Below, piece after piece: positions 22,234 to 37,576 of a stretch of 64,000 nt of DNA. The DNA comes from Lucinisca nassula (lineage: Eukaryota; Mollusca; Bivalvia; Lucinida; Lucinidae): the NCBI GenBank assembly GCA_963580285.1, contig OY757012.1:172567994-172631993 (forward strand), in the 5' to 3' direction. Under the pieces are notes generated by a model. That model did not search any database and had not been told where the DNA came from. It saw only the letters and a program-made list of their open reading frames with translations. How positions within the stretch are numbered: the first letter of the stretch is position 1; the number at the start of each line of letters is the position of its first letter. A program made the translations under genes and the position numbers.

Positions 22234-23037
22234 CATCACGAAAACACGCCTACATAATTTTGACCCCCTTGAACCCCACTTTTATACAGTAAAACGGGTT
22301 TGCAGGGGTAAAATAGAAGTGGTGGCAATGATCAGGAATCGATACAATTAACCCACCGCTGCCATTAGAGACACCAAAGGGAAGGAGACACAAACATGAA
22401 ACAACAGACCCAAATAGAAACATCAACAGCGGAAAGACAGAAGGACAGTTATCCTCTCACAAAATGGCCAATAGGCTATCCAAAATAAACAATATAAGCG
22501 ACACAACAACCAAAGACAAACCATAACAACAAAAAAAAAAAAAAAAAAAAAAAAGCGACAGAAGAACAGCATTGGAATGGTCAGCGGAAACGAATTCCAC
22601 TTTACGTGGCCACAATCCTCGCCCTTACTTCCGTCGCGATTTAGACAAATAATTTGTTCAGTCCGCATGAAGGCCTCCTAACACATCAGTGCAACATCTC
22701 CGTGAACACAAAAAAAAATCAAACAACAACGGTGAGGACTCGACAGCAAGGAACCACTGAAATGCCGGAGCAAAAGAAAACCAGCAGACTCCGATTGGCC
22801 CAACCAGAGACATAGTATCAGGCACCAACCAATGTTACATTGAATTAAAACCTTATTTTTCTTACTTTTGCTCTAAAATCTCGTTAGAACCGCCTCATCG
22901 AGGCGGTTCTAATGAGTACCCACAATTTATATTTTGAGCAGAAATAATAAAAAATATCACAATTTTTCTTCCTAAAATTTTCATTTTTTCGGCGAAAATG
23001 TATTTACAATGTATTTGTATAGGCGTGTTATCGTAAT
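22234..23037 (-). mobile_element. Family A MITE interrupted by family E (duplication 2)
   Basis: Same structure as 20003-20783: MITE parts at 22234-22312 and about 22856-23037, with E at 22313-22855. The terminal repeat has decayed to GTGTTATCGTAATA. Confidence 0.8.
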
Positions 23038-23672: not shown

Positions 23673-23969
23673 CATCACGACAAAACACCTATAAAACTTT
23701 GACCCCCTTCAACCCCACTTTTATATAGTAAAACTGGGGTTTGCAGGGGTAAACCATATTTTCTTATTTCTGCTCTAAAATAAAGATTGTGGGTATTCGT
23801 TAGAACCGCCTCATCCGTTAGAACCGCCTCGATGAGGCGGTTCTAACGAGTACCCAATATCTATATTTTGAGCAAAAATAAGAAAAATATCACAAATTTT
23901 CATCCTAAAATTTTCAATTTTTCGGCGATAAAGGTTACAATGTATATGTATAAGCGTGTTTTCGTAATG
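23673..23969 (-). mobile_element. Family A MITE with a partly doubled palindrome
   Basis: Both terminal repeats are present (CATCACGACAAAACACC and AGCGTGTTTTCGTAATG). In the centre the arm GTTAGAACCGCCTC is repeated twice in a row before the opposite arm, as expected from slippage at a hairpin during replication. Confidence 0.8.
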
Positions 23970-25596: not shown

Positions 25597-25706
25597 CATT
25601 ACGCAAACACGCCTATACAAGGACATTGCCACCTTTATCGCCGAAAAAATGAACATTTTTATGCTGAAAAATTGTGATATTTTTCTTATTTCTGCTGCAA
25701 ATATAG
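25597..25706 (+). mobile_element. Left part of a family A MITE split by the retrovirus-like element
   Basis: Runs from CATTACGCAAACACGCC through a poly-A stretch to TTTCTGCTGCAAATATAG, where the LTR begins. The rest of the MITE resumes at 35906. The last four bases, ATAG, are repeated there, giving the target duplication. Confidence 0.85.
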
Positions 25707-26229
25707 TATAACATAGTCATGTTATGCACATGATATTTTGCATAGGCATGTTATCATGTGTATGACTGAAATGTTGTTGAAGGTGTGTAAGAATGTTGAT
25801 ATGACTGAATGAGTGTTGAAAAGGCAGTAAGCTTCTGTCTCAGTACTATTATGAAAATATTAAGCTTCAATTCTTATTATGAAACAGCTTCATTTTAAAA
25901 CTCTGAAACATCAATTATATAACTTTGCATAAAATGCAGAGATGCACTTGAATTACACATACATGTACCTTACATGTACCTGGCAGCCATTCAAATCATA
26001 ATTTCGTAATATCATATGACTCTGACATTTCCTTTTAAAGGTTATTTAAGCAGGTGTTCATGTGAAGTACTTTAGAAACCTGATGAAACTGCATTTTAAA
26101 GATCATATTATTGGTGCAGTCATCAAAATCATGACAGATAGCTTATAGTTAGAAGAGATTTTGGCAAGAGTTGCGATAACAAGCATGATGCAATGAGAGA
26201 GGGATATTGCGTGAGATTTTTGTAGTGAT

Positions 26230-26237
26230 TATAAATA
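26230..26237 (+). promoter_or_regulatory. TATA-like box of the 5' LTR
   Basis: TATAAATA lies at offset 523 of the LTR and is followed by ACTGGGG. The same motif sits at 35697-35704 in the 3' LTR. It is the only well-formed TATA box in the second half of the LTR and lies about 110 bp before the polyadenylation signal. Confidence 0.6.
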
Positions 26238-26343
26238 CTGGGGTTTCTGACCAAGACTTCAGAAGACTTCAGATGTCTACTTGATCAGCTTGCAGACCGT
26301 TAGTCTGGTTTAGGAGTTGTGCACTCGTATGAGGTGCCTGCCT

Positions 26344-26349
26344 AATAAA
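26344..26349 (+). promoter_or_regulatory. AATAAA polyadenylation signal in the LTR
   Basis: AATAAA in the sequence GCCTAATAAAGCTG. The equivalent at 35811-35816 in the 3' LTR would end the genomic transcript. Confidence 0.6.
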
Positions 26350-26503
26350 GCTGCTGAAACTCTCAATATGACTTTAGTTATATTTTATAATTAAGAAACA
26401 CTATACGATCACAGTCAAAGGTGTATAGCTACGCTATATATCTTGCTTTGTTGCCGTGCTGCGGATAAATTAAAAAAGGAACCTTTCGACAGGAAACAGA
26501 AAA

Positions 26504-26517
26504 ATGGACACCAAGGT
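26504..26517 (+). promoter_or_regulatory. Four-codon leader ORF ending at a splice donor
   Basis: An ATG at 26504 opens four codons (ATGGACACCAAG). They are followed at once by GTAGGT, a good 5' splice site (AAG/GTAGGT). The reading phase at the junction matches both downstream acceptors (AG at 31776-31777 before env, and AG at 34163-34164 before the small ORF). If unspliced, the leader frame continues to a stop at 26606-26608 as a 34-codon hydrophobic uORF upstream of gag. The splice is inferred from sequence and has not been observed. Confidence 0.75.
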
Positions 26518-26695
26518 AGGTGGCGTTTACTTTTACTTTTTCTGGTTATGTTTGTTGTTTGTTCTGTCACCAATTATCATGCAAAATTATGGTAGAAAAT
26601 TAATCTAAAACGAAAAACTAAAAATGTAGGCCAAAATTAATTTTAGATTAATTTATTTATTTATTTATTTTTATTCATTTTTTTTTCTTTTCAAT

Positions 26696-27628
26696 ATGGC
26701 TCAACAAGGACAAGCCCAAGCACAGGCTCAGCATCAACAACAGCTTGATCCTGCTGCACAGGCTTTTGTTAATATTCAATTAGAACTAGCCAATGTGTCA
26801 CAAGCATTAACGACACAGGGGGCCTCAACAAGCGTGATCAAATTTGATGGCAACTCCAAAAACTTTAGAGAATGGATAAAATCCATTGAAAAATATTCAA
26901 TTCTTGCTGATATACCTGAGGCAAGAAAGAAGTTGATTGCATATCAATCTTCTGGGGGAGCAGTTAGTGGTTTTATACAGAGGTATATGGCGGCTAACCC
27001 AGACGGAAATTGGCAACAACTTAAAGAACAATTAGCTGTCCGTTTCAGTGATGTTACGGATAGGCAAATGGCGCTGTCATTGTTACGCAGCGTAAAACAA
27101 AAAGTAGGGGAAAACATACAGCTTTTCGCTGAAAGAATTCTTTCTTTAGCGGAAGAAGCCTACCAAAACCAAGGAGGCGACGCTGTAGAACGTCAACTTA
27201 TTGACATTTTTGTTGATGGGTTGACCCAAGATAACTTAAAATTAAAGATTCTTAGAGATCAGCCAGATACATTGCAGGGGGCGATTGCAATTGCCACTAA
27301 TGAGCAGAATCTTAGGGCTAGGGTTCAAATGTCGCATACATTTCACCCACAAAGAAAAGAAGCACCTATGGATGTTGACCATTCTAGAGGTCAACGGTTT
27401 AAATTTAGAAATTTTAATAGGGTTAATAGCACCCAGCAAAGTAGAAACTTTAAGGTAAAGTGCTGGAATTGTGGTCAAGAGGGTCACATTTCCAGAGATT
27501 GCAAAAACAAAGAACATCAAAGTAGACCACCTATGGGTCATGGAAGACCTAGACATCAGAACAATGTACAAAATGTAGTACCTGGTCAGGAAAACTGGGA
27601 CACTCATTGCATACAGGGGTCGATGTAA
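26696..27628 (+). CDS. gag: Gag polyprotein of the Ty3/Gypsy retrovirus-like element
   Basis: A 310-residue structural protein that would build the particle and package RNA. The N-terminus is glutamine-rich and low-complexity (residues 1-20). The middle (about 45-210) reads like a retrotransposon Gag capsid domain, starting at IKFDGNSKNFREWIKSIEKY. One CCHC zinc knuckle (C-x2-C-x4-H-x4-C, about residues 256-269) is preceded by basic residues for RNA binding. The ATG lies after a T-rich tract and downstream of the leader uORF, so leaky scanning or reinitiation may be needed. The stop TAA overlaps the pro ATG (TAATG). Confidence 0.93.
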   Translation: MAQQGQAQAQAQHQQQLDPAAQAFVNIQLELANVSQALTTQGASTSVIKFDGNSKNFREWIKSIEKYSILADIPEARKKLIAYQSSGGAVSGFIQRYMAANPDGNWQQLKEQLAVRFSDVTDRQMALSLLRSVKQKVGENIQLFAERILSLAEEAYQNQGGDAVERQLIDIFVDGLTQDNLKLKILRDQPDTLQGAIAIATNEQNLRARVQMSHTFHPQRKEAPMDVDHSRGQRFKFRNFNRVNSTQQSRNFKVKCWNCGQEGHISRDCKNKEHQSRPPMGHGRPRHQNNVQNVVPGQENWDTHCIQGSM

Positions 27629-28359
27629 TGAGTAAAGAAAACAATAGACATTTACCTCATCAAAAGTTTAAGATCAATGTTTCAGGCAGTCCAAATTCTT
27701 GTTTAGTTAAAATAGGTAAACAAAGGTTTAGAACTCTTGTAGACACTGGAGCTGAATGTTCGTTAATGCACCGTAGAATTTATGAGCAGCTTAAGAATAA
27801 ACCAAGACTCACCCAAAAGAAAGTTTGCTTACAATCTGCAAATGGGAGTGAGCTTAAGTGTGACGGTTGCATTACTGTACAGTTTTGTATCGGTGGTACC
27901 GAAATGTCTCAAGACTTCTATGTGATCCGAGATTTAAATAGAAATTTGATACTTGGTTTGGACTGGCTTAAACAGAACAACGTTAGGATATATTTTGATT
28001 TAAAATGCTTAAGAATTAATGGTAAACACTATGTTAATTTAGAGGAGGATATACATATAGCTTCAACAGTTAGGATGAAAAGAACATGTTTAATAAAACC
28101 TAATACAGCCATGATATGCTACGGAAAAGTAAGAGAAAATCCAGACTTACCAGTAGGTTCGTCATATGAGGTTTCGCAAATAGATAAAGGATTTTTAACT
28201 AATCAACCAGGCTTACAAATTATTAACACTGTTTCTACATTAGCAAAAGATAGATCTTTGCCAGTTTTAATTGTTAACAACACCAACAAGTATATTAAAA
28301 TTTATAGACATGGTTTGTTAGCTAAAATTTCAGAGCTTCAAATAATGTTACACATGTAG
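27628..28359 (+). CDS. pro: Retropepsin-type protease ORF (pro)
   Basis: This frame is -1 relative to gag. The frame is open from 27553, so it could be reached by -1 frameshifting, or by reinitiation at the ATG that shares a base with the gag stop (TAATG). About 40 residues in is the aspartic protease motif LVDTGAECSLM (DTGA active site). A later ILGLDWL resembles the conserved ILG.D.L flap-side motif of retropepsins. The enzyme would cut Gag and Pol. No standard slippery heptamer was found in the overlap, so the mechanism is open. After the protease fold there are about 100 residues of linker. Confidence 0.9.
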   Translation: MSKENNRHLPHQKFKINVSGSPNSCLVKIGKQRFRTLVDTGAECSLMHRRIYEQLKNKPRLTQKKVCLQSANGSELKCDGCITVQFCIGGTEMSQDFYVIRDLNRNLILGLDWLKQNNVRIYFDLKCLRINGKHYVNLEEDIHIASTVRMKRTCLIKPNTAMICYGKVRENPDLPVGSSYEVSQIDKGFLTNQPGLQIINTVSTLAKDRSLPVLIVNNTNKYIKIYRHGLLAKISELQIMLHM

Positions 28360-31040
28360 ATTCAGTCATTCAAAATAACAGTTGTGAAAATAAATTAGAC
28401 TTAAAAGACCTTGATGTACCTGAAAAATATAGGTCAAAAATTGAAAATCTTATCTTGAGAAATAGAGACTTATTTGCAAATAAAGATTCTGAATTAGGAA
28501 AAACAGACACAGTTAAAATGCAAATTGATATAGGTAATCATGAACCAATTAAAATGAAACCTTATAGAACTCCAATTAAGAACAGAGAGGTAATTGACAA
28601 AGCAATTAACGAAATGTTAGATGCAAATGTAATTAAAAGGTCAAGATCACCTTGGTCATTTCCTGTTGTGATTGTTGACAAGAAAGATGGCAGTAAAAGG
28701 TTCTGTGTTGATTTTCGAAAATTAAATCAAATAACAAAGAAAAATTCATTTCCTTTACCCTTAATAGATGATATCTTAGCCTTACTTGGTAGAGCAAAAT
28801 ACTTTACATCTTTGGACTTGAAAAGTGGATATTGGCAGGTTGCCATGGATGAGAAGGACAAAGAGAAAACAGCTTTCGCATGCCACAAAGGGTTATTCGA
28901 GTTCAATGTGATGCCCTTTGGCCTTTCTAATGCTCCTGTGGTATTTCAAGAACTTATGTCTGTTGTGTTACAAGGTTGCAATGATTTTGCTACAGCATAC
29001 CTTGATGATATATTGATTTTCAGCTCAACATTGGAAGAACATTTGAGACATCTTAGTTTGGTCTTTGACAAATTAAGACAGCATAATTTGAAACTTAAGC
29101 TTAAGAAATGTGGTTTTCTTAAATTAGAAACTAATTATCTTGGCTTTGTTATTAGTGAACAAGGAATCAAACCTGATGAAAAGAAGGTTGATGCGATAAG
29201 ATCTTTACCTGTTCCAACTTGTGTAAAAGAAGTAAGATCATTCATTGGTATGTGTTCTTACTACAGAAGATTTATTCCAAACTTCTCTCAGATAGCTGAA
29301 CCAATCATTGCTTTGACAAGAAAATATGCACATTACAAGTGGTCAGATGTACATCAAACTGCGTTTGAATTCTTAAAAGAAAGTTTAACAGCTGTCCCAC
29401 TTTTAGTTTATCCAGATCCAAATAAACCGTATGTTCTTTATACAGATGCTAGCAACTCGTGTGTTGGTGCATGCCTTACACAAGAGTGTGAAGGTGATGA
29501 AAAACCAATTTATTATTTGTCCCACAAACTTAGTAAGTCCCAATGTAAATGGGCTGTAGTAGAAAAAGAAGCATTTGCTATACATTTTGCTCTTCAGAAG
29601 TTAGATTATTATCTGCACAATGCTCAGTTTGTCATTAGAACTGATCATAAACCTCTGAAATACTTGCTTGAATCTCCTATGCAAAACAAAAAGATTCAAC
29701 TTTGGGCTTTGAGTATGTCAGGCTATAATTGTACTATAGAGTACATTGCTGGTACAACAAATACATGCGCTGACCTACTTTCTAGGCATCCAGATAATGT
29801 AAACAAAACCGAGGAAAGTACAGTTAGTGAAGACGTAGAAGTAGAAAAGGCACTTGATGTCAATGACAACTTATATCAGGTGAATGTGTTAGACTCTAAT
29901 CAGTTTGATCCAAAAGCGTTTGCTGGTTGTAGTCTTCCAAATGAAGATACATTTGAAAAGTGTGACTGTTCTGATTTTACAAAAGAAGGCTTTGACATGA
30001 AAATTGAACAAACTAGGGATGATGATATCTCAAACATTAGGTCAATGATTTTGAATGGGGAAGAGAGTAAAGATGTTCAAAAACATTATCTCTTGGTAGA
30101 TGGATTGGTATACTATTTATCAAATGCCAATGACGATCCAAATTTAAGATTGTATATTCCAAAACATCTTAGATCTTTGGTTGTAACTCAGTATCATGAC
30201 AGTAATGGTCATATGGGGGTACAGAAAACTTTTAATTCTATTCGTCAGAAATACTTTTGGCCAAATTTGTTTAAAGAAATTCACAAGTATGTTTCTGATT
30301 GTATGACTTGCAGAACTAGGTCAATGCAGAAAACGAAACATCCATTACAAGAAACAGATATTCCACCATACCCTATGGCAAAACTCAGTCTTGATCTTTC
30401 GGGTCCATATCCAACAACTTTGTCAGGCAATAAATATATCATTGCATTTGCTGATTGGTATAGTGGTTGGCCTGAAGCTTTTGCAGTTCCTGATAAGACT
30501 GCTGAAACAGTAGCTGAATTGATCATTGGACACATTTTCCCACGTTTTGGCTGTCCTTTACAGATCGTGACGGACAATGGAACTGAGAACGTAAACAAGA
30601 TGGTCAGGGAGACATTGGAAAAACTTAATGTTGACCATATTTTGACAAGCGTGTATCATCCTCAGAGCAATGCAAAAGTTGAGAGATTCCATAGAACTTT
30701 GCATGACATTTTAGCTAAAATGGTAGCTGATAATCAACAGAGTTGGGATTTGTATCTTTGTCAAAGTTTAGCAGCAATTAGATTTAATGTTAGTGAATCT
30801 TCTAAATTTTCACCTTATTATTTGCTGTACAACAGAGATGTAGTATTGCCAGTTGACAATATATTACAGCCTAGGAGGAAATATTTAGGTGAAGATTTTC
30901 ACCAAGTTGCTTTACAAGAACAGCACAGAGCTTTTGTACATGTCAGAAATTACTTACAAAAAGCAAAGAAGCGCCAGGCTAAATATGCAGACAAAAGAGG
31001 TAGAGTTAAAAATAGGAGATCCAGTTTATTATCAAAATAA
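28326..31040 (+). CDS. pol: Pol: reverse transcriptase, RNase H and integrase
   Basis: The frame is open from 28326 and is -1 relative to pro; the overlap is 34 bases. Numbering from the codon at 28455: RT spans about residues 45-230, with LDLKSGY (Asp121) and YLDD (Asp184, Asp185). RNase H spans about 325-445, with YTDAS (Asp331), EKEAF (Glu372), TDHKPL (Asp397) and a final CADLLSR. Integrase has an HHCC zinc module (His581, His586, Cys616, Cys619). Its DDE core is LSLDLSG (Asp647), VTDNGT (Asp707) and AKVERF (Glu743). All catalytic residues are present. The RT and integrase order is that of Ty3/Gypsy. No chromodomain is seen. The frame breaks shortly before the integrase C-terminal GDPVYY-type motif, which lies in the next ORF. 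Confidence 0.95.
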   Translation, partial: NFRASNNVTHVDSVIQNNSCENKLDLKDLDVPEKYRSKIENLILRNRDLFANKDSELGKTDTVKMQIDIGNHEPIKMKPYRTPIKNREVIDKAINEMLDANVIKRSRSPWSFPVVIVDKKDGSKRFCVDFRKLNQITKKNSFPLPLIDDILALLGRAKYFTSLDLKSGYWQVAMDEKDKEKTAFACHKGLFEFNVMPFGLSNAPVVFQELMSVVLQGCNDFATAYLDDILIFSSTLEEHLRHLSLVFDKLRQHNLKLKLKKCGFLKLETNYLGFVISEQGIKPDEKKVDAIRSLPVPTCVKEVRSFIGMCSYYRRFIPNFSQIAEPIIALTRKYAHYKWSDVHQTAFEFLKESLTAVPLLVYPDPNKPYVLYTDASNSCVGACLTQECEGDEKPIYYLSHKLSKSQCKWAVVEKEAFAIHFALQKLDYYLHNAQFVIRTDHKPLKYLLESPMQNKKIQLWALSMSGYNCTIEYIAGTTNTCADLLSRHPDNVNKTEESTVSEDVEVEKALDVNDNLYQVNVLDSNQFDPKAFAGCSLPNEDTFEKCDCSDFTKEGFDMKIEQTRDDDISNIRSMILNGEESKDVQKHYLLVDGLVYYLSNANDDPNLRLYIPKHLRSLVVTQYHDSNGHMGVQKTFNSIRQKYFWPNLFKEIHKYVSDCMTCRTRSMQKTKHPLQETDIPPYPMAKLSLDLSGPYPTTLSGNKYIIAFADWYSGWPEAFAVPDKTAETVAELIIGHIFPRFGCPLQIVTDNGTENVNKMVRETLEKLNVDHILTSVYHPQSNAKVERFHRTLHDILAKMVADNQQSWDLYLCQSLAAIRFNVSESSKFSPYYLLYNRDVVLPVDNILQPRRKYLGEDFHQVALQEQHRAFVHVRNYLQKAKKRQAKYADKRGRVKNRRSSLLSK

Positions 31041-31647
31041 ACAAAGAAAGGGTAAATTAGGACAGAAATGGAAACCTTATTATAGAATAATTGAGAAAAC
31101 TGGACCTGTATCTTTCATAATTAAAAACCAATTAGATGGTACAACAAGTAGAGTATATGCAGGCGATTTAATGTTGGCAAATGTAGAAGATTGGCCAGTT
31201 TCCAAAAATGAAAGTAGTAGAAAACTTAGGGACGCAGCATATGTAATTCCACCTCACGCCTCTGAAACAGAATCTGATTCTGATTCAGAAGAACAAATTC
31301 CCTTGGCTAAGTTAGTCAAGAAATACAGACAAGAAAGAGAAACGTCTTCTGATGAAGAAGACATACCTTTACTGGAGTTACAGAAAAGGTTAAAACACAA
31401 AGAAGCTAGGCAAGATCAAAGTGAAGAAACTGAGGTCAAGGACATGGAATGTAATGACGATTTATCCTCTGATAATTCCTGTTCTATGCCTTTGGTTGAA
31501 AACGATGATTTAGCTAGTGATATAGATGTGAATGTAGTTTATTCACAGCAGCCACTGTCTAATAGTGTAGCCAGCGAGACAGTTAGGCCATTGAAAAAGA
31601 GACGAAGGAAGTCTCGAGATAAAGCAGAGCTTGAGGTTAATGTCTAA
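30889..31647 (+). CDS. Integrase C-terminal part and acidic tail, out of phase with Pol
   Basis: The first 35 or so codons overlap Pol in another phase and are not meaningful. From about 30,990 on, the reading matches the integrase C-terminal motif seen in Gypsy elements (IGDPVYYQNK, then KWKPYYRIIEK). In other Gypsy elements this joins Pol without a break, so a one-base phase change near 30,985-31,015 separates them here. That may be a mutation, a sequencing error or a programmed shift. The tail is rich in Asp, Glu and Ser and repeats an acidic-then-IPL pattern (EEQIPLAKL, EEDIPLLEL). It ends in a basic KKRRRKSR cluster that could be a nuclear localisation signal. Confidence 0.75.
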   Translation: MKIFTKLLYKNSTELLYMSEITYKKQRSARLNMQTKEVELKIGDPVYYQNKQRKGKLGQKWKPYYRIIEKTGPVSFIIKNQLDGTTSRVYAGDLMLANVEDWPVSKNESSRKLRDAAYVIPPHASETESDSDSEEQIPLAKLVKKYRQERETSSDEEDIPLLELQKRLKHKEARQDQSEETEVKDMECNDDLSSDNSCSMPLVENDDLASDIDVNVVYSQQPLSNSVASETVRPLKKRRRKSRDKAELEVNV

Positions 31648-31775
31648 TATGTTATAAAATGACCTCGTAATGTTATGTCTTTAATGAGGTAAAGGCCTCA
31701 TGTATGTTAATTGAGGTGAATTGTAAATAAGTACCTCGTTTAACAGTGTAGTAATGCCCATTTTTATTTAATTTC

Positions 31776-31777
31776 AG
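31776..31777 (+). promoter_or_regulatory. Splice acceptor before env
   Basis: The T-rich tract CCCATTTTTATTTAATTTCAG ends at this AG, ten bases before the first env ATG (31787). Reading from the base after it, three codons lead in frame to that ATG. The phase also agrees with the leader codons at 26504-26515, so spliced env RNA could start at the leader ATG. Confidence 0.75.
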
Positions 31778-31786
31778 ATTAACAAT

Positions 31787-33757
31787 ATGATGATCACATT
31801 AATCTTGGGATCATTGTTTGTTAGCCAGGCATTCGGACTCTTTACATCCGAAAATGTTGTGTTTCAAAAGACTAATGAAGTCTTTATTAACGATGCACAC
31901 TGGTCTGTAACATTTATTCATGATTTGAGACCGTTTGAAAATTTGATTTTAAAGATTCAAAACGATCTTGTTCGCACTGATGAAATTGTGAAATATATGA
32001 CAAGATTTTATCAGAAGTCAAATTTAACGGGATATGTAGAAACATTCCAAAGTTTACATGTTGAAGTTAACCTTTTAACAGATACATACAAGTCTGTTTA
32101 TGAAAACTTTGATGAGTACCAGACACTTTCAGTAAACAGTCATGAACACAAAAGGTCATTAATTCCTATAATAGGACAATTAATGAGCACTCTTTTTGGC
32201 ACTGTATCAGAAAGTGACCTTGAGAACATAGATAGAAATATCAAAACCTTGGCACTTAACCAAGATCAGATTATACATGATCTTGATGTAAGTTTATCTG
32301 TACTTAATTTAACAAGAATGCAAGTAGCAGAAAATAGGAGATCAATAATGGATCTCATCATAGTTATTCAGAAGCTTGACCATAAAATAAGATTGCTCGA
32401 AAGAACAATCGAACAACAGTTTGTTAGACTTGAACAATTTATTCATACATACTTACAGTTCAAAATGATACTTGATGAAATTAGGCTTACCACGCAAGAT
32501 GCTATATTTTATCTTGAGAGCTTAAAATCTGAACTAAACATGTTGTCAGTGCATCATTTATCAACTAATACAATCTCTCCTAAAGATCTGAAGCAATTAT
32601 TAATTGAAGTAGAAACAAAACTTCCTAATAACTTTGAGCTTCCTAAAAATCCTCGTAAGGATATTTGGTATTTTTATAAGACATTGACATGTATAACATA
32701 CCTTGAAAATAATGAAATTAGAATTATTCTTAAGATTCCACTAATTAACACGAAAGAGGAATATGAAGTATATAAAATACATAACTTACCACTACCGCTA
32801 CTCTCAAATAATCAGACAGATGTATTATTAAAATACAGTTTAGAGAATGAAATGTTATTGGTCTCAAAGGATAAAACAAAGTTTTCCCTTCTATCTGAAA
32901 GTACATTTCAGATGTGTAATAACTATCATTTTCAGTTCTGCAATCCTGAGACAGCATTTTATCAGACCAACGTAAATAAGTTTTGCGTTGTTGCTCTCTT
33001 CATGCAAAACCTGCATGACATTAAAAAGTATTGTAAACAAGTAGTTGTGTTGGATGAAAGGTTGCCAACTACGAAGTACTTGTCATTTGGTATTTGGATT
33101 GTTGTTACAAATAGACCTCTGACATTTACATTAAATTGTCAGTCATATGAACCGAAGAATGCTGACATTAAAATCACACCACCACTTGGCATTATCCGGT
33201 TAAATAACACATGTAAAGCCTCAAACAAATATTTACAGTTACCTGAATATTTTGGCAGACATAGTAACTTTGAAAGGTCAGATCCTTTGCAAGCACTTTT
33301 GAAATTACATAATGTTTCAACCTTTTACCTTTGGCCTGATAGTAAAACTAAACTAGGATCTAAACCAATGAAGTTGCCACCACATTTGTCAGGTTTGAAA
33401 GAGATTCCTTTACAAAATTTACTCCATGAAACAAGAAATTATAAACCTGTGATATTAGATGAGAATAAATCCAATACTAGTTGGATACATGTTATGTTAA
33501 TCAGTATTGCATCGACGGTATTATTAATTGCAATTATCTTAATCATCTTACGTAGAAGAAACTTTGTCTATAAGATAATTGGTGTAAGACAGGCTAACAC
33601 ACATGATCTTGAGAAGGTGAATGTGAAACGGTCACCGATCAAAGGTGATGTTATAGAGATGTCCACTCTGATCGAAGAACAAAACGTCGATAACGTTGAG
33701 GAAGGACAAAAGACCTTCAAGTGGACTGATGCAACGGCAGCATGGGCAAAGAAATAA
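31787..33757 (+). CDS. env: Envelope-like glycoprotein (baculovirus F / gypsy Env type)
   Basis: 656 residues from the first in-frame ATG. Residues 1-17 form a hydrophobic signal peptide ending at a plausible cleavage point (AFG/L). A basic pair Lys122-Arg123 is followed by a fusion-peptide-like stretch (about 124-140, with IIGQLMSTLFGT) and an acidic/amphipathic region like that of baculovirus F and insect gypsy Env. A long heptad-rich coiled coil lies at about 145-255. A cysteine-bearing domain (Cys302, 377, 385, 400, 416, 451, 476) precedes a transmembrane helix at about 568-588 and a tail of roughly 68 residues. NxS/T sites include Asn79, 174, 342, 509 and 563. The cleavage site lacks an Arg at P4, so it is not a strong furin site. 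The ORF has no stop or frameshift. Family assignment is by architecture and needs a profile search. Confidence 0.87.
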   Translation: MMITLILGSLFVSQAFGLFTSENVVFQKTNEVFINDAHWSVTFIHDLRPFENLILKIQNDLVRTDEIVKYMTRFYQKSNLTGYVETFQSLHVEVNLLTDTYKSVYENFDEYQTLSVNSHEHKRSLIPIIGQLMSTLFGTVSESDLENIDRNIKTLALNQDQIIHDLDVSLSVLNLTRMQVAENRRSIMDLIIVIQKLDHKIRLLERTIEQQFVRLEQFIHTYLQFKMILDEIRLTTQDAIFYLESLKSELNMLSVHHLSTNTISPKDLKQLLIEVETKLPNNFELPKNPRKDIWYFYKTLTCITYLENNEIRIILKIPLINTKEEYEVYKIHNLPLPLLSNNQTDVLLKYSLENEMLLVSKDKTKFSLLSESTFQMCNNYHFQFCNPETAFYQTNVNKFCVVALFMQNLHDIKKYCKQVVVLDERLPTTKYLSFGIWIVVTNRPLTFTLNCQSYEPKNADIKITPPLGIIRLNNTCKASNKYLQLPEYFGRHSNFERSDPLQALLKLHNVSTFYLWPDSKTKLGSKPMKLPPHLSGLKEIPLQNLLHETRNYKPVILDENKSNTSWIHVMLISIASTVLLIAIILIILRRRNFVYKIIGVRQANTHDLEKVNVKRSPIKGDVIEMSTLIEEQNVDNVEEGQKTFKWTDATAAWAKK

Positions 33758-34162
33758 GGAAAATCTGTGCACAGTGTTTTAAAGCAGATTATTTTTGAAT
33801 ACTAGTTATATGAACGTGTTTGTTAACTTAGGAATAAGTTAACAGTGTTTAGCTATTCAACAGAATATAGCTATTATTGTTACATGTTATGAACTATTTG
33901 CATAACAGATGAACTTTATTTATCGTACGATGTGTTTTCATCATGTATATAGCTCATGTGATCGTAATAGTACTAATGGTTATAGTACATTGACATTTCA
34001 GTGACATTTATTTGTGCCTTGTATAGTCCTGAAGACTATGCATTGACGAAGACTTAGTGATCAGAACTTTAAGTGACTTTAAAATAATAAAGTCCTGAGT
34101 ATGCCCCTTAAGGTCATGCTTAGGTGAAGATATACATGTGACATTGAACTTTATTTTATTAC

Positions 34163-34164
34163 AG
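34163..34164 (+). promoter_or_regulatory. Splice acceptor before the small fourth ORF
   Basis: ACTTTATTTTATTACAG ends here. The codons after it (CCA GAC GAC...) are in the same phase as the leader ORF that ends at the donor at 26515. No in-frame ATG exists between the previous stop and this point. Confidence 0.7.
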
Positions 34165-34407
34165 CCAGACGACATTAGTGTTGTACAGGAACACTATGGA
34201 TATTGTAAAGAACATCCACCACATCCAACTTACCTTATTACTAACCTACACCACCAGCAAATACACAGCTCAGATAACAACGATGGGATACTAACAGCGA
34301 ATAAAATTTACAGAGTTCCGGTTATACCTATTCCACAACCTCCGACAGTTATAAACTTGAGGGAAGAACAATGTGACTGTGTAAATTCACCATCCAAAAA
34401 GGAATAA
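34165..34407 (+). CDS. Small ORF without its own ATG: predicted spliced accessory protein
   Basis: An 80-codon exon-like open frame between env and the 3' LTR. The only upstream start in its frame is a GTG inside the acceptor tract, so it is best explained as the second exon of an RNA that begins with the four leader codons at 26504. The residues are hydrophilic and proline/histidine-rich (KEHPPHPTYL, IPIPQPP), with a CDC motif near the C-terminus and a basic end (SPSKKE). No signal peptide, membrane helix or known domain is seen. Its position after env and its splicing mode are like those of retroviral accessory genes; its function is unknown. A chance open frame of this size is possible, but the phase match argues against it. 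Confidence 0.6.
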   Translation, partial: PDDISVVQEHYGYCKEHPPHPTYLITNLHHQQIHSSDNNDGILTANKIYRVPVIPIPQPPTVINLREEQCDCVNSPSKKE

Positions 34408-35173: not shown

Positions 35174-35905
35174 TATAACATAGTCATGTTATGCACATGA
35201 TATTTTGCATAGGCATGTTATCATGTGTATGACTGAAATGTTGTTGAAGGTGTGTAAGAATGTTGATATGACTGAATGAGTGTTGAAAAGGCAGTAAGCT
35301 TCTGTCTCAGTACTATTATGAAAATATTAAGCTTCAATTCTTATTATGAAACAGCTTCATTTTAAAACTCTGAAACATCAATTATATAACTTTGCATAAA
35401 ATGCAGAGATGCACTTGAATTACACATACATGTACCTTACATGTACCTGGCAGCCATTCAAATCATAATTTCGTAATATCATATGACTCTGACATTTCCT
35501 TTTAAAGGTTATTTAAGCAGGTGTTCATGTGAAGTACTTTAGAAACCTGATGAAACTGCATTTTAAAGATCATATTATTGGTGCAGTCATCAAAATCATG
35601 ACAGATAGCTTATAGTTAGAAGAGATTTTGGCAAGAGTTGCGATAACAAGCATGATGCAATGAGAGAGGGATATTGCGTGAGATTTTTGTAGTGATTATA
35701 AATACTGGGGTTTCTGACCAAGACTTCAGAAGACTTCAGATGTCTACTTGATCAGCTTGCAGACCGTTAGTCTGGTTTAGGAGTTGTGCACTCGTATGAG
35801 GTGCCTGCCTAATAAAGCTGCTGAAACTCTCAATATGACTTTAGTTATATTTTATAATTAAGAAACACTATACGATCACAGTCAAAGGTGTATAGCTACG
35901 CTATA
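35174..35905 (+). mobile_element. 3' LTR, 732 bp
   Basis: Same length and, on reading through both, the same sequence as the 5' LTR. A short purine-rich tract (GTGGAAGG, 35164-35171) lies just upstream as a candidate polypurine tract. ATAG (35906-35909) repeats the 4 bases before the 5' LTR. The match between LTRs means very recent insertion or gene conversion. Confidence 0.95.
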
Positions 35906-36080
35906 ATAGATTGTTGGCACTCGTTAGAACCCCCTCATCGAGGCGGTTCTAACGAGCATCCACAATCTATATTTTAGAGCAGAAATAAGAAAAATAAGGT
36001 ATACCCCCAGAAACCCCAGTTTTACTATATAAAATTGGGGTTCAAGGGGGTCAAATTTATATAGGTGTGTTTTCGTGATG
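35906..36080 (+). mobile_element. Right part of the family A MITE split by the retrovirus-like element
   Basis: It resumes inside the palindrome stem (ATAGATTGTTGGCACTCG). It continues with the opposite arm, the CCCCAGTTTTACTATATAAA hairpin and the terminal GGTGTGTTTTCGTGATG. Joined to 25597-25706 it would be a normal-length MITE, which gives an independent empty-site reference. Confidence 0.85.
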
Positions 36081-37229: not shown

Positions 37230-37576
37230 CAGTAAAACTCCGATGGCTCGAACACCGATGGCTCGTTACCATGGTTGAGTCGAACCCATTATTTAGCCCC
37301 TAGAGAAACCCTGTACGTAAGAAATAGTGGGATAATTTAAGAGATTTTCGCCTTTTTTTTGCTTGCAAATGTATGCTGTGTGTACTCATTAGAATCGCCT
37401 CGATGAGGCGATTCTAATGAGTACACACAGCATGCATTGTCATTATAGAACACCAAAACGATGCCAAAAAGGATATCCTTAGGTCTCCTGGCAGTAACCC
37501 TGAGTGGCTCGAACCACCCCTGTCTCGAACAGATTTTCGAGGTCCTAAAGGTGTTCGAACCATTGAAGTTCTCCTG
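37230..37576. mobile_element. pogo/Tigger-like MITE carrying a family A-type palindrome
   Basis: TIRs are CAGTAAAACTCCGATGGCTC at the left and, read in reverse, CAGGAGAACTTCAATGGTTC at the right. TA dinucleotides abut both ends (37228-37229, 37577-37578), as for Tc1/mariner/pogo elements. It is 347 bp with no transposase. Its centre is a palindrome (TTAGAATCGCCTCGATGAGG) strikingly like the core of families A and B, although the flanks are unrelated. Confidence 0.7.

Follow-up and report, generated by a model that had tools for sequence, protein, structure and literature searches.

Complex retroviruses and alpharetroviruses use one splice donor in the leader together with alternative acceptors, and in the avian alpharetroviruses the first codons of env come from gag. 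Splicing from the leader to env is already known in Drosophila errantiviruses of the ZAM and Beagle subclades (Senti et al., PMC12992720). Cer1 of C. elegans, a Ty3/gypsy element, is described as making a non-Env accessory protein, CERV, from a spliced message, and CERV as being required for the export of unspliced RNA (PMC10309623). In elements of the mdg1 group (Metaviridae) two small ORFs, sORF1 and sORF2, were reported to have low dN/dS (PMC11952523).

Here we describe an element in a stretch of 64,000 nucleotides (the window; G000:C3:172567994-172631993) of the 2.93 Gb genome of Lucinisca nassula. Judging from its sequence and that of its copies, it is likely that one leader donor of this element is spliced alternatively to env or to a small gene which lacks an ATG. 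The leader-to-env half of this plan is already known, and the novelty lies in the second gene; the open-access literature, as far as the available texts go, was not found to describe a further gene spliced from the leader and lying downstream of env in an element of this type.

Architecture of the element

By its sequence the window element is classed as a Ty3/gypsy endogenous retrovirus with an env-like ORF and multiple copies in the genome (Table 1). The order protease, reverse transcriptase, RNase H, integrase is that of the Metaviridae (Ty3/gypsy), as are the LTRs and short target-site duplication, here identical repeats of 732 bases with ATAG on both sides. From the coordinates, the steps from gag to protease and from protease to pol each go one base back in frame. 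The integrase-tail region is a single open frame in five of the seven other copies read, so the window copy is damaged there despite its identical LTRs. At the expected primer-binding site (26439 onward) the window copy has no TGG start, and this place varies among copies; in the window it includes a four-base block (within 26439-26470) that differs between them. Palindromic repeats around CGAGGCGGTTCTAACGAG lie on both sides of the insertion (22882-22953, 23816-23887, 35922-35993 and 37387-37458).

Table 1. Features of the window element (positions are those of the window)
Feature	Position	Strand	Basis or remark
Target-site duplication ATAG, 5' side	25703..25706	none	sequence
5' LTR, 732 bases	25707..26438	+	identical to 3' LTR
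TATAAAT and AATAAA, both within the 5' LTR	26230 (TATAAAT); 26344 (AATAAA)	+	by inspection
Leader codons ATG GAC ACC AAG (MDTK)	26504..26515	+	sequence; seen in other copies
Splice donor GTAGGT (predicted)	26516..26521	+	top-scoring donor in element
uORF of 34 codons, hydrophobic, from leader ATG on unspliced RNA	26504..26608	+	
gag	26696..27628	+	CCHC zinc knuckle; Retrotrans_gag and Ty3_capsid matches below their cut-offs
Protease reading frame	27553..28359	+	
pol: reverse transcriptase, RNase H, integrase core	28326..31040	+	
Integrase tail	30889..31647	+	by inspection; frame differs from pol in window copy
env splice acceptor (predicted)	31767..31777	+	AG ends at 31777
env-like ORF, 656 aa	31787..33757	+	ATG at 31787, stop ends at 33757
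Small-ORF splice acceptor (predicted)	34154..34164	+	AG ends at 34164; top-scoring acceptor in element
Small ORF (putative accessory gene), 80 codons, without ATG	34165..34407	+	under purifying selection
3' LTR, 732 bases	35174..35905	+	identical to 5' LTR
Target-site duplication ATAG, 3' side	35906..35909	none	sequence

By inspection, the env-like ORF has a signal-peptide-like start, a basic HKR site before a hydrophobic stretch and a C-terminal hydrophobic segment. It had no Pfam match at E up to 10, its best PDB match (E 0.25) was an unrelated enzyme, and its AlphaFold model (mean pLDDT 32) was too poor for fold comparison. Neither env nor pol had a relative in scans of viral contigs, whose reach is limited to close relatives.

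Predicted splice sites and messages

A preliminary description of this DNA had proposed that a leader of four codons and its donor are in phase with both env and an ORF without ATG. The coordinates and phases were found to be as described there. The leader ATG (26504-26506) begins ATG GAC ACC AAG, which ends at 26515 and is followed directly by GTAGGT. The env acceptor, TTTAATTTCAG/ATT AAC AAT ATG ATG, has its AG ending at 31777 and leads in phase 0 into env; the small-ORF acceptor, TTTATTACAG/CCA GAC GAC, has its AG ending at 34164 and leads in phase 0 into the 80 codons that end at 34407.

When the sites were scored with a rough consensus matrix, the leader donor ranked first of the 481 GTs in the element, and the small-ORF and env acceptors ranked 1 and 15, respectively, of the 590 AGs. 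Fifteen acceptor-like sites had scores equal to or above that of the env acceptor. Seven of these open at least 80 codons in phase 0 (most of the seven fall within gag, pol or env), hence phase agreement in a single sequence is only modest evidence. The agreement of both acceptors, on which the proposal relied, is present but is less telling for env, whose own ATG lies nine bases past the acceptor. Open length alone is weak evidence for the small ORF: among 1000 dinucleotide shuffles of the post-env region, 25 reached 102 open codons and 126 reached 80. It is the comparison among copies that lifts the proposed scheme above chance. An acceptor-like AG at 26761, inside gag, ranked third of the 590; its use would put MDTK in frame with gag.

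That the leader ATG opens four codons holds up to the donor, but on unspliced RNA the same ATG opens a uORF of 34 codons with its stop at 26606. This ATG is in good context and the uORF, which has 27 codons in subfamily B (see below), terminates upstream of gag. Between the inferred transcription start and the leader there are three more AUGs. The uORF was also considered as a conserved micropeptide; this was not supported (dN/dS 0.85 to 2.03 on 8 or 9 changes).

In the proposed scheme the unspliced RNA would serve for Gag-Pro-Pol, and alternative choice of the 3' splice site from the one leader donor would produce two singly spliced messages, both supplied by the leader exon with the start codon and MDTK. 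One message would encode Env, for which the ATG of env itself could also serve as start. The other would encode the 80-codon accessory gene, with a protein of about 84 residues. From the sequence we infer that the spliceosome would use these sites and that translation would start at the leader AUG.

Conservation of the leader and the acceptors among copies

The env query gave 69 match rows (best 67 of 1325 candidates scored), 16 of them with stops. With the small ORF as query 150 match rows were obtained (best 150 of 390 candidates scored), 10 with stops and 140 free of internal stops. Three groups of copies can be told apart: the main family A, subfamily B (small ORF 70 to 72% identical) and a small number of intermediates. 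Subfamily-B matches also occur in pairs spaced by about 9.48 kb (C22:87658085 and 87667566; C16:121155913 and 121165399), the spacing expected of tandem proviruses with a common LTR.

The leader was present in 32 of the 39 copies in which it was sought (all in the same genome, examined in pieces); the donor GT was kept in all 32 and the ATG in 31. By group, it was found in 23 of 26 copies of family A, in all six of subfamily B, in the single copy C1:95656257 and in two of six intermediate copies (L063 and L091), and was not found in the pieces fetched for the other four. For family A an initial search gave 15 of 20; wider or new pieces added three of the five misses and five of six new copies, and one miss reads N. 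All 23 family A leaders have the GT at the same distance (22 GTAGGT, one GTAAGT), and 22 have the ATG.

The env acceptor TTTCAG was located at the corresponding site in 35 of the 40 copies searched (7/7, 7/7 with the window excluded, 20/20, and 1/6 of the intermediate copies), in phase 0 in 34 of the 35. In the pieces fetched for the remaining five intermediate copies it was not found; the piece for L062 stops just short of the site. In L005 the env phase was lost through loss of one base. The copy at C1:222732481 (L117, L141) breaks beside the env acceptor, where about 340 bases are inserted with TTTCAG left in place.

The AG of the small-ORF acceptor was seen in 50 of 51 copies. The samples were 20/20, 13/13 (two already counted) and 20/20 (one already counted), i.e. 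50 distinct copies, plus L052, which lacks the AG and whose upstream part is foreign. Of 40 copies read onward, 35 were open in phase 0 for at least 79 codons, L002 and L064 with an altered tail included. Four of the exceptions (L008, L058, L061 and L067) have shortened frames. In the fifth, L055, a gain of one base puts the leader and the small ORF out of phase, though leader and donor are kept. L052 shares this one-base difference and a neighbouring repeat boundary, so that L055 and L052 represent one decayed lineage.

Comparison thus supported the retrovirus-like splicing scheme of the preliminary description, the donor, both acceptors and the phases being kept in most copies examined, also in the subfamily with only about 71% protein identity in the small ORF. 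Disagreement of phase, which would have spoken against the scheme, was sought among the related copies. Most agree, and the two exceptions, L005 for env and the L055/L052 lineage for the small ORF, appear to reflect the decay of individual insertions.

Probes spanning the predicted junctions detected no copies of spliced products in the genome. With at most one mismatch they gave 6 and 3 matches (reversed controls: 4 and 1), and the sole exact match sits in unrelated sequence. In L052 (C4:96437080) the sequence is that of the element from precisely the small-ORF acceptor onward. A retrocopy was rejected here, the flanks matching a repeat that is also found in the window (38499, 20095 and 22326). 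The repeat boundary of L055 (C7:79231963) is at the point matching 34508 and is common to L052. In the one repeat copy that was compared, 3' of L052, there was no continuation into a donor at that place. The L052 junction was treated as recombination.

Selection on the small ORF

Between the window and the subfamily-B copy L011 the small ORF differs by 62 substitutions in 240 bases, with no indels. The values for this pair were dS 1.15, dN 0.19 and dN/dS 0.17, comparable to env (0.14). In the frame set by the acceptor 23 amino-acid changes were observed, whereas none of 20,000 neutral placements of these substitutions yielded fewer than 29. The other two frames, both with stops, showed no such depletion (40 and 42 changes; neutral means 36.9 and 38.4). 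The neutral chance of finding no stops in the small ORF was 0.13, so their absence is by itself uninformative. Indels between A and B were present upstream of the acceptor and none within the ORF, and family A copies also differ in length directly before the acceptor. Against the window, dN/dS was 0.06 for L028, 0.28 for L068, 0.42 for L049 and 0.50 for L055 (L061, at 0.77, was left out for its frameshift); in single older copies the value probably includes neutral decay. Because of the frame-specific amino-acid constraint, the lack of indels and the low dN/dS, the small ORF is very probably a real gene.

An ATG is lacking from the small ORF in the window copy and in 15 of the 20 family A copies sampled, which makes the spliced leader its likeliest start. 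The other five of the 20 have an internal ATG, and in the five B copies read there is an in-frame ATG at codon 7. As encoded in the window copy, the protein lacks methionine; the leader reads MDTK. Cys14, His17, His20, Cys70 and Cys72 were invariant in all seven aligned sequences, three of them B copies. A basic tail is present in subfamily B and in L055. By inspection the protein of the window copy has no hydrophobic stretch. Neither Pfam nor PDB gave a match at E up to 10, and the predicted structure (mean pLDDT 41) was uninformative. By analogy, the protein is perhaps a regulatory or accessory factor, possibly nuclear, of a Rev- or CERV-like kind.

Conserved noncoding flanks

In the A-B pair the noncoding sequence upstream of the small-ORF acceptor differs by 6% over 184 compared bases, while the synonymous sites of the ORF are near saturation. 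The contrast was much weaker between the window and L049, L055 and L068 (flank 10 to 13%, dS 0.22 to 0.29). The noncoding stretches before both acceptors, 33958-34164 and 31658-31777, are far more conserved between A and B than the synonymous sites of the small ORF. Such flanks may be under constraint, in the manner of signals for splice control or export, or be mosaic from recombination. In env, dS ranged from 0.10 to 1.01 among windows of 80 codons; this points to mosaics, and recombination may shape part of the conservation pattern. Before the env acceptor the RNA may be drawn with hairpins, but the 29 pairs predicted on four sequences showed no covariation, since in none had both partners changed.

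Alternative explanations

The small ORF could be a real gene and yet be reached by double splicing or from another donor, for example one inside env. The element does contain other donor-like sites, such as 33617 and 29880, and complex retroviruses make doubly spliced accessory messages. On the other hand, the leader donor is the best of the 481 and its phase fits; moreover, an ORF without ATG in the window and in 15 of the 20 sampled A copies needs an upstream phase-0 start there. We therefore regard such a route as improbable. Translation of the small ORF without splicing, by a non-AUG start, an IRES, reinitiation after env or the codon-7 ATG of subfamily B, seems very unlikely. In the window the open frame reaches 22 codons upstream of the acceptor, five B copies have the ATG, and gypsy was reported to have two IRESs (PMC4276936), but the upstream extension is not kept, the lengths before the acceptor differing among copies, and the B codons that precede the ATG stay in frame.

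It might also be that the phases agree by coincidence and that the 3' ORF is open by chance or represents a conserved RNA. Its length is not rare, as the shuffles indicated, and in the A-B pair the flanking noncoding sequence is conserved as well. Frame-specific selection and the lack of any indel over 240 bases with 62 substitutions speak against coincidence, to which we give hardly any credence.

Comparison with known systems

If alternative splicing from the leader donor is borne out, a Ty3/gypsy retrovirus would share the two-message plan commonly associated with complex vertebrate retroviruses, and ordinary ORF annotation would miss ATG-less accessory genes of such a kind. The export and balance of unspliced RNA would become a testable question in an element with many open copies. 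A further-reaching reading is that a Ty3/gypsy element evolved the programme of complex retroviruses independently of the Retroviridae, a single leader AUG and donor serving both env and a regulatory gene without need of its own start codon, with the Cys/His protein governing the export or splicing of unspliced RNA and with the noncoding stretches before both acceptors as targets; we find this conceivable but doubtful.

The ZAM and Beagle errantiviruses have, like the window element, the order gag, pol, env, and the available text of PMC12992720 mentions no second gene downstream of env on the same leader. In the window element the third-ORF position is taken by an env-like ORF of 656 aa to which no Pfam profile, baculovirus F protein included, was matched. 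CERV of Cer1 is given as a protein of 517 aa, encoded in five exons at the env position (PMC10309623). The window ORF, likened to it by description, has 80 codons, lies downstream of the env-like ORF and would be joined across one predicted intron. The sORFs of the mdg1 group sit upstream of gag on RNA reported to be unspliced, and sORF2 is described as a membrane protein (PMC11952523). The features of sORF2 and FAST-like fusogens, a transmembrane segment and an N-myristoylation motif, were not seen in the small protein of the window by inspection only. From complex retroviruses and alpharetroviruses the window element differs in its order from protease to integrase and in its gag and pol matches, which are Ty3/gypsy-like.
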